The notes below the pieces were generated by a model. It was not told the DNA's origin. It was given only the letters and a program-made list of their open reading frames with translations, and ran no database searches. Both the position numbers and the translations under genes were made by a program. A stretch of 64,000 nt of DNA from Pedobacter sp. Leaf176. GTDB lineage: Bacteria; Bacteroidota; Bacteroidia; Sphingobacteriales; Sphingobacteriaceae. Each line of letters opens with the position of its first letter. Within the stretch, counting starts at the first letter, position 1. The stretch lies in contig NZ_LMPD01000008.1 of assembly GCF_001424305.1 (NCBI RefSeq), positions 62,001 through 126,000 on the forward strand, read 5' to 3'. This document shows positions 12,827 to 18,470 of the stretch, in pieces.

Positions 12827-13387
12827 TCAACGTATAGGGTCACTATCAAAAACAATGCATAAATAGTTGCCATGGTGGCTAACCGATACATGATGTGGTG
12901 TTTTATTACACAAATTTTTTACCTCAGGAAGATTATTTTCGTTTTTATATAATTGGTAATCAGTATTTTGTTTATTGAAAAGCTGCGGGTAGTTTAAAGG
13001 GTATTGATTGCGCCATAACCTTATATTCTTTGAAAATCGAATATCATCAGTCGCAATGGTGTGTATAAATTCAGTTTTGATTTCGGTTGTTGTCAAAACT
13101 TTCAAAGTGTTGTAATTAACAAGGCCTTTTGCAGTTTCGTTATTCAATTCTACAATGCTGCACTGAAAAGCGGCTGGATTAAAAAGCCGTTTATTCGTTA
13201 TTCTGTTACATATTTTGTAGGCTGATTCTTTCATGCTCCAAAGAATCCAAACCAATACATCAGGATCTTTAGCTGATGAAATAAGCCGATGTTCTTCTTC
13301 AGTAAAAATCTTATCGAGGTAATTTTTACGCCTCCAGTTGCTTTGGATTTTGGCCAGGTTTAAATCTACGATATCATTACCCAGCAT
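12827..13387 (-). CDS. 4'-phosphopantetheinyl transferase superfamily protein
   Basis: A 186-residue protein when started at MLGNDIVDL; the open frame allows seven more residues (to 13408). The two superfamily motifs are present: GNDIVDL at the N-terminus (metal-binding Asp) and WSMKESAYK (W-x-x-K-E-S) near residue 70. Such enzymes move phosphopantetheine from CoA to a serine of carrier proteins. It is the last gene of the seven-gene operon, overlaps the ACP gene by 11 nt, and very likely activates that ACP. The C-terminal half is divergent, so specificity for other carriers cannot be judged. Confidence 0.85.
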   Translation of the reverse strand: MLGNDIVDLNLAKIQSNWRRKNYLDKIFTEEEHRLISSAKDPDVLVWILWSMKESAYKICNRITNKRLFNPAAFQCSIVELNNETAKGLVNYNTLKVLTTTEIKTEFIHTIATDDIRFSKNIRLWRNQYPLNYPQLFNKQNTDYQLYKNENNLPEVKNLCNKTPHHVSVSHHGNYLCIVFDSDPIR

Positions 13388-13637
13388 TTGCCTGTAATTT
13401 GTTTTCAATCACATCGATTGTTGCTTTAACCGTGAGCATTTTCGCCATTGAATCGTTATCGATTGTGATGTTAAATTTTTCCTCAATATCTAGAACGATA
13501 TCAACTAAATTTGCAGAGTTGATTTTAAGGTCTTTGATAAAGTCCGTATGCGCTCCGATATTTTCTAACGCAGATTTTTCTTCTGTATAGGGTATAATAA
13601 TTGTCTTTAGTTCGTCGATTATATGTTGTTCAGTCAT
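13377..13637 (-). CDS. Acyl carrier protein, atypical attachment motif
   Basis: An 86-residue ACP. The pattern LKINSANLVDIVLDIEEKFNITI aligns with the usual L-G-x-D-S-L-x-x-V-E segment and puts the phosphopantetheine serine at Ser41. The common Asp-Ser-Leu is Asn-Ser-Ala here. This divergence from housekeeping AcpP suggests a dedicated carrier for the pathway. It overlaps the ketosynthase stop by 8 nt, which indicates translational coupling. The housekeeping AcpP is not in the window. Confidence 0.9.
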   Translation of the reverse strand: MTEQHIIDELKTIIIPYTEEKSALENIGAHTDFIKDLKINSANLVDIVLDIEEKFNITIDNDSMAKMLTVKATIDVIENKLQANAG

Positions 13638-14910
13638 TTTTATATTTTTTAAAGATTACACAGGCATTAATGTCGCCAAATCCAAAACTTGCTTTAATTA
13701 AGATGTTAATGGGTTTTTCTATCAGTTTTTGAGGTATGCATTTGGCATTAATCAAGGAACTGATTTCCGGATTCAAATCCTCGCAGTTCACGTTTGGAAA
13801 GATAAATCCATTGTGCAGCTCCAGTATTGATGCCACAGACTCAATACTTCCTGCTGCACTAATGCAATGGCCTACCATTCCCTTTAATGAATTTATGTAA
13901 GGAAAATTGTCCGCGGAAGACCCTAATGCTTTCTTCCAGTTTTCAACTTCCAGTGCGTCTTTTGATGTAGCAGTTAAATGTCCATTTATCACATCTATTT
14001 CATCGGCCCCGACTCTGGAATTTTCAATCGCCTGCTTAATACAGCGCTGTACAGCAAGCGGGTTTGGAGCGGTCATGGTGCCTAAGCCACGCTGGCCACC
14101 GGAATTTGCATCACCGCCGAGGACTTCGGCATAGATTTTTGCATTTCTTGCCAAAGCGGAATTCAATGATTCCAATACTAAGGCACCTGCGCCGCTTCCC
14201 GGCACAAACCCACTAGCAGTTAAACTCATTGGCCGGCTTCCTTTCTCCGGTTCGTTATTGTGTTTGAAGGTACATACTTTCATGGCATCAAATCCTCCCC
14301 ATATGTATGGCCCGCTGTCGCTTGTACTTCCGGCCAACATCCTTTTGGCCTGTCCGGATTTAACCCTTTCATATGCCAGTAAAATGCTTTCGGTACCGGT
14401 TGCACACGCGGCGGAATTTGTAATCACCCGATTTCCTAAGCCTAATTTTCCACAGATGAAAGCACTAACTCCACTAGCCATGGTTTGTACAACAACAGAG
14501 CTTCCTAATTTTCGGATTTCCAATTCATCTATTTTGTTTATCGCCCAGCGAAATTTATCAATTCCTGAAGTACCCGTTCCGAAGACCGTTCCACTTTCCC
14601 AATCAGGCTCATCGTCATTGCTTTTCTCTAACCCAGCGTCTTTCCAGGCGTCCAAAGCTGCAATTACGCCGTAAATTATTCCGCTGCTGTTTAAATTTCT
14701 CAACTCTAAAGGCGTAAAATATTGTGCAATCCGGTCTTCATTAAGGGATGGTTTTGCTGCAATCTGGCAAGAAAATCCAAGCGCTTCCAAATCAGGTTGA
14801 TGCGTAATTCCCGAAGAGCCGTTTTTAATCGCCTCAGTAAAATCAGGAATTGTAGTTCCATTTGGCGCACAAATGCCGAGACCAGTAATTACGACACGAT
14901 TATTATTCAT
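13630..14910 (-). CDS. Beta-ketoacyl-ACP synthase (KS) family protein
   Basis: A 426-residue condensing enzyme of the FabF-like thiolase fold. The active-site triad looks intact: Cys169 in NSAACATGTES, His311 in INGHLTATSKDALE and His348 in SLKGMVGHCISAAG. The second motif reads NGHLTAT rather than the usual N-A-H-G-T-S-T, so it belongs to a side branch rather than housekeeping FabF. It would extend an acyl-ACP by two carbons using malonyl-ACP. It overlaps the dehydratase gene upstream and the ACP gene downstream by 8 nt each. In this context it should help to build the acyl starter for the type III synthase, or extend its product. Confidence 0.9.
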   Translation of the reverse strand: MNNNRVVITGLGICAPNGTTIPDFTEAIKNGSSGITHQPDLEALGFSCQIAAKPSLNEDRIAQYFTPLELRNLNSSGIIYGVIAALDAWKDAGLEKSNDDEPDWESGTVFGTGTSGIDKFRWAINKIDELEIRKLGSSVVVQTMASGVSAFICGKLGLGNRVITNSAACATGTESILLAYERVKSGQAKRMLAGSTSDSGPYIWGGFDAMKVCTFKHNNEPEKGSRPMSLTASGFVPGSGAGALVLESLNSALARNAKIYAEVLGGDANSGGQRGLGTMTAPNPLAVQRCIKQAIENSRVGADEIDVINGHLTATSKDALEVENWKKALGSSADNFPYINSLKGMVGHCISAAGSIESVASILELHNGFIFPNVNCEDLNPEISSLINAKCIPQKLIEKPINILIKASFGFGDINACVIFKKYKND

Positions 14911-15349
14911 CAGGTTTAGAAATTAACATCCCTTCAATAGTTCCTTTACATATCAGCTCACCCGAAACAGTTTCCATTTTTACTCTGCAACTCAATTTAT
15001 TAAATCTAAAATAGCGCTTTTCACTGGTTACAATTACTGTTTCCCCCGGGTATACCGGTCTTAGAAAATCGACCGAATTTGAGGTCATTGCAATCGATAT
15101 TTTCTGCTCATCAGAATAACTGCCCAATAGAAACAATCCTAAACAGACGAGTCCGATTTGAGCCATAGTTTCGGTCAAAATCACCGCAGGTGTTACAGGG
15201 GCGGTTTTAAAATGTGCCTCGTAAAATGGTAAATTTTGCGCGTATGTATAGCTTCCCTTCACACCATTTTCATCAATATGAAGCAAGTCATCAACGAACA
15301 AAAATGCATCTCCGTAAGGTAATTTATTGATTATTTCCTTTGCTTCCAT
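14903..15349 (-). CDS. FabZ-like 3-hydroxyacyl-ACP dehydratase (hotdog fold)
   Basis: A 148-residue hotdog protein. The start at 15349 is preferred: the stop of the polyketide synthase (15351) is 1 nt upstream and the family begins near INKLPYGDAFLFVDDL. In AHFKTAPVTPAVILTETMAQ the His and Glu are 14 residues apart, exactly as in FabZ, so dehydratase chemistry is possible. The glycines of the normal F-P-G-x-P-x-x-P-G loop are missing, which may mean changed substrate or thioesterase-like use. It belongs to the seven-gene operon and probably acts on ACP-bound intermediates made by the neighbouring KS. Confidence 0.82.
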   Translation of the reverse strand: MEAKEIINKLPYGDAFLFVDDLLHIDENGVKGSYTYAQNLPFYEAHFKTAPVTPAVILTETMAQIGLVCLGLFLLGSYSDEQKISIAMTSNSVDFLRPVYPGETVIVTSEKRYFRFNKLSCRVKMETVSGELICKGTIEGMLISKPDE

Positions 15350-15350
15350 C

Positions 15351-16403
15351 TTACCATTGTAAAAGTATTCTTTGTGCGGAAAATCCAGGGCCAAAACTCA
15401 GCATTAAACCTTTTTCTCCTGTCTGCGGTTTCGTATCCAGGGTACGTTCTAGTACGTATAACACCGTCGCACTGCTCATGTTGCCATAAAGTCTTAAAAC
15501 TTCTTTTGTTTCATCTATGTTTTTACCAAGTTTGCCAAATAATTCCTCTACAATCTGTATGATTTTTTTTCCGCCTGGATGAAAAATCAGATGGTCAATC
15601 GCCTCAATTTCCAAACCATTTTTAGCCAGGAAAGGGTGTATAATCGCCGGAAAATGCGAAGCAATCGTTTCAGGAACCTCTACATCCAATACCATTTGCA
15701 AACCGGAATTGGTCAGTTTAAATCCCATCATGTTTTCTGCATCGTAAAAATGATACATTTCCTCTGCTATAATTTCAGGCCCCTTATCTGCTCCGTCTGA
15801 ACTAAGTAAAACGCAGGCCGCACCATCCCCAAAAATGGCTGCGCTCACCACGTTGGCCATAGAAAAATCATTAAGCTGGAAGGTCGCAGTAGGCGATTCG
15901 ACGGCAACAACTGCCGCTCGCTTACCCGGATTTGCCTTGAGAAAATTTTTTGCATAAATGATTCCCGAAACCCCTGCAGCACAACCCATTTCGGTTACCG
16001 GTAAACGTACAATGTCCTGGCGAAGCCTCAATTCATTTATCAGGTAAGCGTCTAAAGATGGAATCATTATCCCCGTACAACTCACAGTGATGATGAAATC
16101 CAGATCTTCAGCTTTCCATCCGGCTTTTCCCAATGCCGTTTCAAGACATTGTTTACCCAATTTTATGCCTTCCTTTATGTAAATAGTGTTTCTTTCTTCA
16201 AAACTTAAATCGCTAAACACTTCTCCCGGTGACATTATTGAATAACGCTTATCTACAGCAGCACCCTCGAAAATTTTTTTAACCTTTCTGATAAATCGCT
16301 CGTCCTGGTTTTTCAACCACCCATCTAAAAAAGGCAGAATATCTTCCGTCGCACTCCAAAATTCGGGAAGGGCTTTCCCAACTGCTTTTATTCTAACACT
16401 CAT
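15351..16403 (-). CDS. Type III polyketide synthase
   Basis: A 350-residue chalcone/stilbene synthase superfamily enzyme. The catalytic triad is readable: Cys141 in TEMGCAAGVSG, His275 in IFHPGGKK and Asn308 in LYGNMSSAT. The CTGIMIPSLDAYL motif and the GPGFSAQRILLQW ending fit bacterial alkylpyrone/alkylresorcinol synthases rather than KAS III. These enzymes take a fatty acyl starter and add malonyl-CoA units to make alkyl-pyrones or resorcinols. Its start overlaps the methyltransferase stop by 4 nt (ATGA). The arrangement PKS, methyltransferase, FAD oxygenase recalls Streptomyces srsABC (phenolic lipids), from established knowledge of that cluster. Confidence 0.92.
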   Translation of the reverse strand: MSVRIKAVGKALPEFWSATEDILPFLDGWLKNQDERFIRKVKKIFEGAAVDKRYSIMSPGEVFSDLSFEERNTIYIKEGIKLGKQCLETALGKAGWKAEDLDFIITVSCTGIMIPSLDAYLINELRLRQDIVRLPVTEMGCAAGVSGIIYAKNFLKANPGKRAAVVAVESPTATFQLNDFSMANVVSAAIFGDGAACVLLSSDGADKGPEIIAEEMYHFYDAENMMGFKLTNSGLQMVLDVEVPETIASHFPAIIHPFLAKNGLEIEAIDHLIFHPGGKKIIQIVEELFGKLGKNIDETKEVLRLYGNMSSATVLYVLERTLDTKPQTGEKGLMLSFGPGFSAQRILLQW

Positions 16404-17113
16404 ATCGTTTTAATTATCCATTGGTAGCGAAATGCCCATTTCCATTTAATATCACTGAATTTAAAGTTTAACCGCTTGCTATAGTTCAAAAGATCTGCTC
16501 TTTTGAATCCCCGCAGAATAGATACTAGACCATCTTCTCTCGACATATCGTTTAATGCGAAAAGGAAACACAGAGCCTTGAAAAGATAGTAAGCTAAGGC
16601 GCTTCTGTGCAAGTCATTAATAACAATACCCAATTTTGCCGATTGTTTAAATTTTTCGAGAATGCGAATAATATCCTCGTCCTTAAAATGGTGTAAAGTC
16701 AGGGTGCAAATAAAAATATCACACGCTTGCTCCTCTATTGAACTGTCAAAAATATCACGACATTCGTAAGAAATATTGTTGTAATTCTTAGACAAATTTT
16801 CAGCGTGTTTTATTGTGAAATTGTTGGCATCTATTCCTTTTAAAATAAAATTCAAGTTTTTTTCTTCTGCATAATCGGCCAGGGCCCTCAGCATATCTCC
16901 ATTGCCGCAACCAATATCTGTAATACGTATTGGTTCATCTTTTGGTTTGCCCTGAATTAAGATTTTAATTCCACTAATGGTAACCTTATTGCCGCCTAAC
17001 AATTGATTAATGCGTGCGATTTTATCTAATGCATCTCTTAAAATCTCACCTTCCATCTGAAAATCATCCATAAGTTCCGGCGCATTGCTTCTAAACTTTG
17101 TATTTATCGCCAT
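16400..17113 (-). CDS. Class I SAM-dependent methyltransferase of the polyketide operon
   Basis: A 237-residue methyltransferase with SAM motif I ITDIGCGNGDML (about residues 66-77), the acidic GIDANNF and TLTLHHFKDEDI. UbiE-like proteins have this layout. It probably O- or C-methylates the polyketide ring. The start is either GTG at 17119 (overlapping the oxidoreductase stop by 4 nt) or ATG at 17113 (2 nt after it); I prefer the ATG. It overlaps the type III PKS by 4 nt. Methyltransferases sit next to type III PKS genes in Bacillus (bpsB) and Streptomyces (srsB). Confidence 0.85.
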   Translation of the reverse strand: MAINTKFRSNAPELMDDFQMEGEILRDALDKIARINQLLGGNKVTISGIKILIQGKPKDEPIRITDIGCGNGDMLRALADYAEEKNLNFILKGIDANNFTIKHAENLSKNYNNISYECRDIFDSSIEEQACDIFICTLTLHHFKDEDIIRILEKFKQSAKLGIVINDLHRSALAYYLFKALCFLFALNDMSREDGLVSILRGFKRADLLNYSKRLNFKFSDIKWKWAFRYQWIIKTI

Positions 17114-17115
17114 AA

Positions 17116-18246
17116 TCACGAAATTGGAATCGGTTGTCCATGGGTATATTTAATTAATTTATTCAAAATAAAAGGCATGCTGCTGATGGCGTTCATAGCG
17201 AAACTTTCCATTGCCTTGTTTTTTAATAACGATGTTAGGAGTTGTCCTGCTTTTAAGCGTGTACTAAACAGGCTTTTCCAGCTTGCACTATATTTTTTTT
17301 CTAACTCAATTCTTGATGAGATTTGTCCCTTAGCATATTTATTCAAAAGTTCGGATAAGATTTTCGCACTGTGAATAGCCATCGCCATTCCATTACCACA
17401 AAGCGGGTGTATTAATCCGGCAGTATCTCCGATCATTAAAATATGGTTATATACAGGTTCTTTTGCCTCGAAAGATATTTGGCTAATCGTTAAAGGGGCA
17501 TCAAAAATCATCTTTGACTGCTCTAATATGTTTCGAAGATTGGCGTTTTTATAGAGTACATTTTCCTGATAGGCTGTAATGTTTTTATGTTTTTTAAAGC
17601 TTTCGTAATCTGCTAAATAGCAGACGTTTAGTTTATTATTTTCAACTTTGGAAACGCCGCAGTAACCGCCTTCAAAATTATTCAGGCTCACAAGGTTATC
17701 TGGAAAATCTGAAAAATAGTGTGCCTTTACAGCCAGATAACCTGATCTTTTGCTGATAAACTCACGTTCCAGCTTTACGTCAATCGATGCCCGTTTGCCA
17801 TAGGCACCGATAACATGATTTGACTTAAGGCTTATTCCTGCGGATGTTTCGATAATAAACTGATTATCCGAATAAATTATATTAGTAACTGTATCCTGTA
17901 AAATGGTAATGCCACGGTTAAGCGCAGCTTGGTATAAAAAATTATCAAGAACGAACCGGCTCAAGCCCCAACCTCCTAATGGCAGTTTTGTGGTAAAAGA
18001 TTTTTGCGAACGGGATGTGAATTGTAGGTTTGTTATCAGTGTAGGCGATAAACCCGTCAGGTTAAGGTTAAGCGAGTCCAGGTAGGGCAAAACCTCGTTA
18101 GAAATATATTCCCCGCAAACTTTGTGATGCGGATAACTTTGTTTCTCAATTAAAATTACATTTAAACCAAATTGTTTTAGGTGAATAGCCGCAGTCAAAC
18201 CCGCCAAGCCACCACCAACAATTAGAACTTCTGATTCCAACTTCAT
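17116..18246 (-). CDS. FAD-dependent oxidoreductase, geranylgeranyl-reductase/hydroxylase-like
   Basis: A 376-residue flavoprotein, the first gene of the seven-gene operon. It shows the FAD Rossmann motif GGGLAGLTAA (11-20), acidic EKQ at the end of strand 2, KVCGEYIS typical of the geranylgeranyl reductase-like group, and the second FAD motif MIGDTAGLIHPLCGNGMAMAI near residue 284. By analogy with srsC it may hydroxylate the methylated polyketide ring toward a quinone; reduction of a prenyl or acyl chain is the other option. The intergenic gap before it (18247-18482) faces lpxK and must contain the operon promoter, but I found no perfect -7 box on the minus strand. Confidence 0.85.
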   Translation of the reverse strand: MKLESEVLIVGGGLAGLTAAIHLKQFGLNVILIEKQSYPHHKVCGEYISNEVLPYLDSLNLNLTGLSPTLITNLQFTSRSQKSFTTKLPLGGWGLSRFVLDNFLYQAALNRGITILQDTVTNIIYSDNQFIIETSAGISLKSNHVIGAYGKRASIDVKLEREFISKRSGYLAVKAHYFSDFPDNLVSLNNFEGGYCGVSKVENNKLNVCYLADYESFKKHKNITAYQENVLYKNANLRNILEQSKMIFDAPLTISQISFEAKEPVYNHILMIGDTAGLIHPLCGNGMAMAIHSAKILSELLNKYAKGQISSRIELEKKYSASWKSLFSTRLKAGQLLTSLLKNKAMESFAMNAISSMPFILNKLIKYTHGQPIPIS

Positions 18247-18462: not shown

Positions 18463-18470
18463 TATTTTTG
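18463..18470 (+). promoter_or_regulatory. -7 promoter box of lpxK (TATTTTTG)
   Basis: A perfect TAnnTTTG box 12 nt before ATG 18483. The last three bases form the TTG at 18468 that would be an alternative start, so the box argues for ATG 18483. Confidence 0.45.

Follow-up and report, generated by a model that had tools for sequence, protein, structure and literature searches.

A conserved Bacteroidota operon that combines a type III polyketide synthase with a putative acyl-chain supply cassette

Seven tightly packed genes and their relatives

The window, a 64,000-nucleotide stretch of contig C8 of the Pedobacter sp. Leaf176 genome (G000; nearest named relatives, Pedobacter), carries on its minus strand an operon of seven open reading frames (ORFs), spanning positions 18246-12827. 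In order of reading they encode an FAD-dependent oxidoreductase, a methyltransferase (MT), a type III polyketide synthase (PKS), a FabZ-like dehydratase (DH), a FabF-like ketoacyl synthase (KS), an acyl carrier protein (ACP) and a phosphopantetheinyl transferase (PPTase), listed in Table 1. A first-pass annotation, made from the letters of the window, had described the genes as overlapping or lying 1-2 nt apart, and the coordinates agree. The FAD stop lies 2 nt from the ATG of the MT gene, which overlaps the PKS gene by 4 nt; 1 nt separates the PKS stop from the ATG of the DH gene; and the remaining junctions, DH/KS, KS/ACP and ACP/PPTase, overlap by 8, 8 and 11 nt. These values take the ATG starts as the likelier ones; the ORF list opens the MT gene at GTG, and the DH and PPTase genes at TTG.

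Table 1 Proteins encoded by the operon
Product	Position in window	Strand	Start and Pfam evidence
FAD-dependent oxidoreductase, geranylgeranyl-reductase/hydroxylase superfamily, 376 aa	17116..18246	-	FAD_binding_3, 44.7 bits (cut-off 22)
S-adenosylmethionine (SAM)-dependent class I methyltransferase	16400..17113	-	ATG 17113 (GTG 17119 also open); Methyltransf_25, 46.4 bits (cut-off 27)
Type III PKS, 350 aa, Cys141-His275-Asn308	15351..16403	-	Chal_sti_synt_N/C (PF00195, PF02797), above cut-off
FabZ-like 3-hydroxyacyl-ACP dehydratase, 148 aa, His46/Glu60	14903..15349	-	ATG 15349; FabA-like, 46.1 bits (cut-off 23)
FabF/FabB-type beta-ketoacyl-ACP synthase, 426 aa, Cys169-His311-His348, Lys343	13630..14910	-	ketoacyl-synt N/C, above cut-off
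Dedicated acyl carrier protein, 86 aa, Ser41 for phosphopantetheine	13377..13637	-	PP-binding, 26.7 bits (cut-off 20.8)
4'-Phosphopantetheinyl transferase, 186 aa	12827..13387	-	ATG 13387; ACPS, 46.1 bits (cut-off 25)

The earlier family assignments hold for all seven proteins, each of which exceeds the curated cut-off of its Pfam family. No NCBIfam model listed for any of them reaches its own cut-off, as expected of specialised relatives: the FAD protein scores 94.6 bits against TIGR02032 (cut-off 158.8), the MT 125 against PRK06202 (243), the PKS 177 against its top model DpgA (425), the DH 62 against FabZ (113) and the KS 274 against TIGR03150 fabF (494). The closest solved relatives are Pks11 for the PKS (1.9e-48) and the FabZ structure 6n3p for the DH (3.6e-10). 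The KS is 32% identical to another FabF-like KS of the same genome (C1:597589).

The operon is real, conserved and widespread. The first-pass annotation had proposed a survey of the gene set across Bacteroidota, and such a survey finds it in at least 80 named loci, nearly all from Flavobacterium and Pedobacter, with a few from Chitinophaga, Dyadobacter, Kaistella and others. Because the underlying scan covered at least 591 stretches, of which at least 553 were confirmed as relatives of any kind and 80 loci were kept, these counts do not translate into a frequency. All seven genes stand in the same order in 72 of the 80, four of which carry an additional short-chain dehydrogenase/reductase (SDR) gene. 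A contig end truncates three of the eight exceptions (L106, L121 and L128), and in two more the gene absent from the order count, ACP in L132 and PPTase in L155, is detected by tblastn. Order count and tblastn together find no PPTase in L143, and neither ACP nor PPTase in L159. In Dyadobacter sediminis (L134), the operon is rearranged, with the cassette, including an SDR gene, reversed in front of an MT-PKS pair; the FAD gene was not found in this 19 kb locus. The truncated L121 lies on a 5.3 kb contig of a metagenome-assembled genome labelled Candidatus Nitrotoga, probably a binning error.

Residue counts and protein distances were computed on the 72 loci that hold all seven genes. The KS, DH and ACP of the window retain their catalytic residues, and the KS tetrad Cys169/His311/Lys343/His348 is invariant in 72/72 relatives, as are ACP Ser41, PKS C141, H275, N308 and F228, PPTase W50, K53, E54 and K58, and MT D68, G70, G72, H143 and H144. 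DH His46/Glu60 are kept in 70/72, the other 2 not covering the region; the GGGLAG glycines of the FAD protein are present in 69/72, the region being missing in 3, and its GD...P.CG residues in 71-72 of the 72. The PKS and KS are the most conserved proteins (mean identity 81% and 74%), the PPTase the least (45%). Pairwise distances of the seven proteins correlate with one another (r 0.59-0.87), the PKS-KS pair giving the highest value, r 0.87. Intergenic gaps are mostly small, with medians from -8 to 14.5 nt, the PKS-DH gap being computed on the 68 loci that lack the SDR gene.

A fatty-acyl module tied to the PKS, and a sister cassette beside darB

In a sample of 201 genomes of the family, the PKS is present at 67% identity or more in 30, after which the matches drop to at most 39%, save for one 65-residue fragment at 48%. 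The KS is found at 64% identity or more in exactly the same 30 genomes. Within the window genus, 26 genomes hold both KS and PKS, 10 neither and 0 only one; in g16, 4 hold both and 30 neither. A phylum sample of 395 genomes gives 33 with the PKS, with the same drop in identity from 67% to 39%, and all 33 are also KS-positive; conversely, 5 of the 38 KS-positive genomes are without an operon-type PKS. Genome G115 retains both halves of the operon on separate contigs, PKS-MT-FAD on one and DH-KS-ACP-PPTase on another. With the 80 named loci, 36 further ones were scored, two of which, L069 and L202, are the halves of one split operon; these 116 loci overlap in species and so are not summed as organisms.

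Sixteen of the 116 scored loci (6/80 named and 10/36 further, requiring 8 or more changes on the PKS tree) bear an SDR gene of about 265 codons that adjoins the DH gene, mostly between PKS and DH. Its top NCBIfam model is the enoyl-ACP reductase FabL in 5/5 proteins tested, at 141-171 bits, under the equivalog cut-off of 328, and the protein has a Tyr-x6-Lys spacing, which we take to mark enoyl reductases. The block thus resembles a module for elongating fatty chains in which an enoyl reductase is optional; it is not a complete fatty-acid synthase. The first-pass annotation had supposed that the starter supply is built into the operon. The part of that idea which stands is a fatty-acyl module tied to the PKS (30/201 and 33/33 genomes); in the window operon, the module comes without a ketoreductase or an enoyl reductase.

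The operon PKSs lie on one side of a branch with support 100 in a quick tree under a simple model. Besides them, the tree took in 13 PKSs from Bacteroidota triads and 4 linked to ICMT-family methyltransferases, and operon, triad and ICMT-linked enzymes form three separate groups. The triads come from other genera of the family, in which 14 loci (L038-L050 and L052) carry PKS, MT and FAD genes in varying order and no adjoining cassette genes. Their PKSs are 26-33% identical to the window PKS. The pairing of PKS, MT and FAD enzyme noted earlier as a mark of known phenolic-lipid operons is thus borne out by adjacency and by homology to these 14 triads, at 30-38% identity for the MT and 37-46% for the FAD protein. 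A second Bacteroidota type III PKS group is the nearest outside the clade, at 34-39% identity to the window PKS. One small neighbouring gene is shared by 9/11 of its loci (L033-L037 and L174-L177; not L178 or L179), and its product is an ICMT-family methyltransferase by Pfam in 3/3 tested. The pair of PKS and ICMT in these nine loci is presumably like BpsAB of B. subtilis.

In the KS tree, Dyadobacter nests among Pedobacter, Kaistella among Flavobacterium, and g16 beside one f4 genome, a pattern that suggests horizontal transfer between named families. We do not treat such transfer as demonstrated, because the 5 family changes on the PKS tree are the minimum for six families.

We read the surroundings of the KS gene in the five KS-positive genomes without an operon PKS: G014, G581 of another family, and three genomes of family f24. 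In G014, the member read here of a set of 14 family-sample genomes with DarB, and in G581, an SDR-DH-KS-ACP-PPTase cassette is divergent from a dar-type locus. In locus L203, the cassette diverges from darB-darG-darH, and it holds the same place in L204. Relative to their counterparts in the operon, the sister proteins are 55% and 53% identical for the KS, 54-55% for the ACP, 44-48% for the SDR, 43-44% for the DH and 25-37% for the PPTase. The G014 DarB scores 634.8 bits (NCBIfam cut-off 550), DarG and DarH are also above their cut-offs, and by these matches the locus is assigned to dialkylresorcinol (DAR)/flexirubin biosynthesis. The protein ahead of DarB matches no model and is presumably DarA. 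Four G014 dar-locus proteins searched in G581 recur there at 52-75% identity. Between the cassette and the dar genes lies a conserved protein of 166-167 aa (L203:10541-11041, L204:10751-11254), the L203 copy of which matches no Pfam or NCBIfam family.

The association extends across the family sample. A KS at 52-56% identity occurs in exactly the 14/201 genomes with a DarB at 79% or more, all of one genus, in which 20 others have neither, and KS and DarB genes lie at most 6 kb apart in 10 of the 14. The f24 genomes (L205, L206 and L207) hold a DH-KS-ACP block, with an SDR in L206, near a GNAT-like gene; in L205 and L206, the two loci searched, a glycosyltransferase 2 gene is also nearby, perhaps marking a third, glycolipid context. 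On the KS tree, the T3PKS label takes 2 changes, and the T3PKS-linked KSs do not come out clearly as one clade apart from the DAR and f24 KSs.

The operon is flanked in the window by a divergent ORF starting at 18468, which we take to be LpxK-like, and downstream by a gene for 1-pyrroline-5-carboxylate (P5C) dehydrogenase (TIGR01236). A scan for sigma-70 promoters and terminators gave hits at chance level only. The genome has three PF01648 matches above cut-off, the operon PPTase among them. About 8 kb from another PPTase gene, at G000:C6:531936-540873 (L201, L188), lies an open frame of 2213 aa that is KS-like over part of its length, probably a separate multidomain PKS/nonribosomal peptide synthetase cluster.

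A proposed route to a decorated phenolic lipid

With a probability that we put at roughly 0.6, the operon makes a decorated phenolic lipid, in which the acyl-ACP cassette supplies the type III PKS and the ring is then methylated and oxidised. We infer the reactions, the ACP-to-PKS hand-over, the ring type, the chain length and the biological role as follows. The KS and DH, with a ketoreductase and an enoyl reductase borrowed from the housekeeping set, would extend an acyl chain on the operon ACP, itself activated by the operon PPTase; in some relatives the FabL-like enzyme borne by the operon would take the enoyl reductase part. The PKS would accept the chain as a starter, add malonyl units from malonyl-CoA and close a ring, most likely an alkylresorcinol. 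The MT and the FAD enzyme, likely a ring methyltransferase and a ring hydroxylase or oxidase by their families, would then give a hydroquinone or quinone, or an ether. The central step has precedents: ArsA feeds ArsB and ArsC, GCS and SCO7671 take hexanoyl-ACP (PMC6274091), and the type III PKS CylI takes its chain from a carrier protein (PMC8086630). For the later steps, planctomycete operons of PKS, MT and oxidoreductase yield alkylresorcinols that are methylated once (PMC10896814).

Several observations weigh against this reading. By the Pfam families of its seven genes, the window operon has neither a ketoreductase nor an enoyl reductase, and the genome has no close ortholog of the SDR, the best match being 27% identical, so that an unsaturated chain may result. 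In the relatives, the SDR scores about 82-114 bits against FabG (ketoreductase) models as well, and its assignment as an enoyl reductase is therefore not firm. The genomes behind the co-occurrence counts are related to one another, so the counts lack independence; inside the operon, some relatives have gaps of up to 480 nt. Each of the five KS-positive genomes without an operon PKS holds a distant type III PKS (<40%) away from the cassette, and the three f24 genomes among them have a cassette-like KS with neither operon PKS nor dar context. Sixteen genomes with a distant DarB (44-57%) are without a DAR-type KS (one of them, G120, has the PKS-type KS), so DarB is not generally dependent on the cassette. 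The presumed cyclisation-switch residue of the PKS is Phe in 72/72 relatives, not the Trp of ArsB. The role of the FAD enzyme is described as unresolved in planctomycetes as well (PMC10896814).

The ring type is where the strongest competing explanation arises: with the same supply, the PKS might close an alkylpyrone by lactonisation, which the MT would O-methylate. Most of the closest PKSs from outside the clade have an ICMT-type methyltransferase as their partner, the arrangement of BpsAB, which in B. subtilis reportedly gives alkylpyrone methyl ethers; the closest solved PKS, Pks11, is named for alpha-pyrone synthesis; and the presumed switch position is not Trp. Cyclisation in the Azotobacter enzymes turns on ArsB Trp281/ArsC Gly284, with a Met nine residues on (PMC6274091), and from this spacing, rather than from an aligned ArsB sequence, we located the corresponding column, which holds Trp in 13/13 triad and 4/4 ICMT-linked PKSs and Phe228, with Met237, in the window PKS. 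We rejected this switch as decisive: Pks11, a named pyrone enzyme, itself carries Trp there, so that Trp is not a firm rule, and the resorcinol enzyme CylI has Leu. Phe is also bulky and aromatic, and in sequence the MT and the FAD protein are like their counterparts in the triads, whose kind yields resorcinols in planctomycetes. A pyrone seems rather unlikely.

The alkylresorcinol route is compatible with another view of the product's role, namely that it is neither an envelope lipid nor a signal but a polyketide quinone that carries electrons in respiration. Operons of PKS, MT and oxidoreductase make such quinones in actinobacteria, namely mycobacteria and Streptomyces (PMC9927152), but the operon holds no respiratory gene, the operon being where such links were looked for, and it is present in only 26/36 sampled genomes of the genus. 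We regard a respiratory role as doubtful.

Two further explanations would uncouple the cassette from the starter of the PKS, and we judge both improbable. In the first, the order is reversed: PKS, MT and FAD enzyme would make a small aromatic acid that, once loaded onto the ACP, KS and DH would lengthen to an aryl-alkenoate. The aryl-acyl-CoA maker DpgA is the top NCBIfam model of the PKS, and in flexirubin a KS, a reductase and a dehydratase are proposed to extend a coumaroyl starter into the aryl polyene (PMC3992019); against this, the Pfam families of the seven genes include no ligase to load an acid and no DpgB-D-like gene, and the sister cassette adjoins darB, which encodes a chain-joining enzyme. 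In the second, the cassette would make a separate, co-regulated lipid and the PKS would draw on common acyl-CoA or on acyl-ACP of the housekeeping pool; acyl-CoA is the substrate of most characterised type III PKSs, and the 14 triads do without a nearby cassette, but in our samples the cassette accompanies the PKS clade without exception, even where the operon is split, and the same cassette type is paired with another resorcinol synthase.

The phenolic-lipid reading, in which the cassette feeds the PKS, can be widened. SDR-DH-KS-ACP-PPTase may be a portable unit of chain supply that has been combined in evolution with two different resorcinol-forming enzymes, type III PKS (with MT and FAD enzyme) and DarB, a Bacteroidota-wide way to a private acyl-ACP pool that sets the tail of phenolic lipids independently of membrane fatty acids; we hold the odds for and against this idea to be about even. 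If the proposed route is right, the operon would offer a simple test system for the feeding of a type III PKS by a free-standing ACP, the length and saturation of a phenolic-lipid tail would be set by a dedicated KS, DH and, in some cases, enoyl reductase, and supply cassettes of one type would connect two resorcinol pathways of Bacteroidota. Widespread as the operon is in the phylum, none of the matches listed in searches of open-licence PMC papers, which include no preprints and few subscription papers, was seen to name a product for such a type III PKS from Bacteroidota, in agreement with the earlier remark that no characterised product was known. The terms 'T3PKS', 'type III' and 'resorcinol' are all absent from the main text of a phylum-wide survey (PMC9248904).

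Relation to known systems

The type III PKS stands beside an MT and an FAD oxidoreductase in phenolic-lipid and polyketide-quinone operons of the srs, pkq and hid type (pkqABC, hidABC and the planctomycete triads; PMC9927152, PMC10896814), as in the window. An alkylated, methylated and oxidised ring is likely to be common to both, whereas the window operon has four more genes, for DH, KS, ACP and PPTase. Its PKS is separate from the triad PKSs compared, all of them from Bacteroidota, and has Phe for Trp at the presumed switch. We take srsABC to be a PKS-methyltransferase-oxidoreductase phenolic-lipid operon of this sort. The BpsAB-type pairs of PKS and ICMT (L033-L037, L174-L177) hold the PKSs nearest to the clade and differ in their partner, a membrane ICMT-type methyltransferase as opposed to the class I soluble type of the window; no FAD-enzyme homolog or cassette was found in these loci. 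The koreenceine cluster (PMC6498172) was rejected as a relative, being a type II PKS pathway of Pseudomonas.

In other systems, a carrier-protein machine feeds the type III PKS. In cylindrocyclophane biosynthesis, CylI is supplied in this way, with a chain that comes from type I PKSs (PMC8086630). The Azotobacter ars operon likewise encodes dedicated fatty-acid machinery together with a type III PKS (PMC6274091); there the acyl chain passes straight from a carrier domain to the PKS, as we propose for the window operon. As opposed to ArsA, a type I multidomain fatty-acid synthase, the KS, DH and ACP of the window are free-standing and type II-like, with a PPTase of their own; the operon has no ketoreductase, adds MT and FAD genes and belongs to a different phylum. 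In the dar locus (DarB, DarG and DarH), where the sister cassette adjoins darB in L203 and L204, fatty chains are put into a ring, as would be the case here, with a type III PKS in place of DarB; the window genome itself gives no DarB match at E<=1e-90. Since the acyl-ACP-fed type III PKSs ArsB and ArsC (fed by ArsA), GCS and CylI are known, the principle is not new. New, judged from the genes, is the joining of a putative chain-supply cassette to a phenolic-lipid type III PKS operon, with a sister cassette beside darB.

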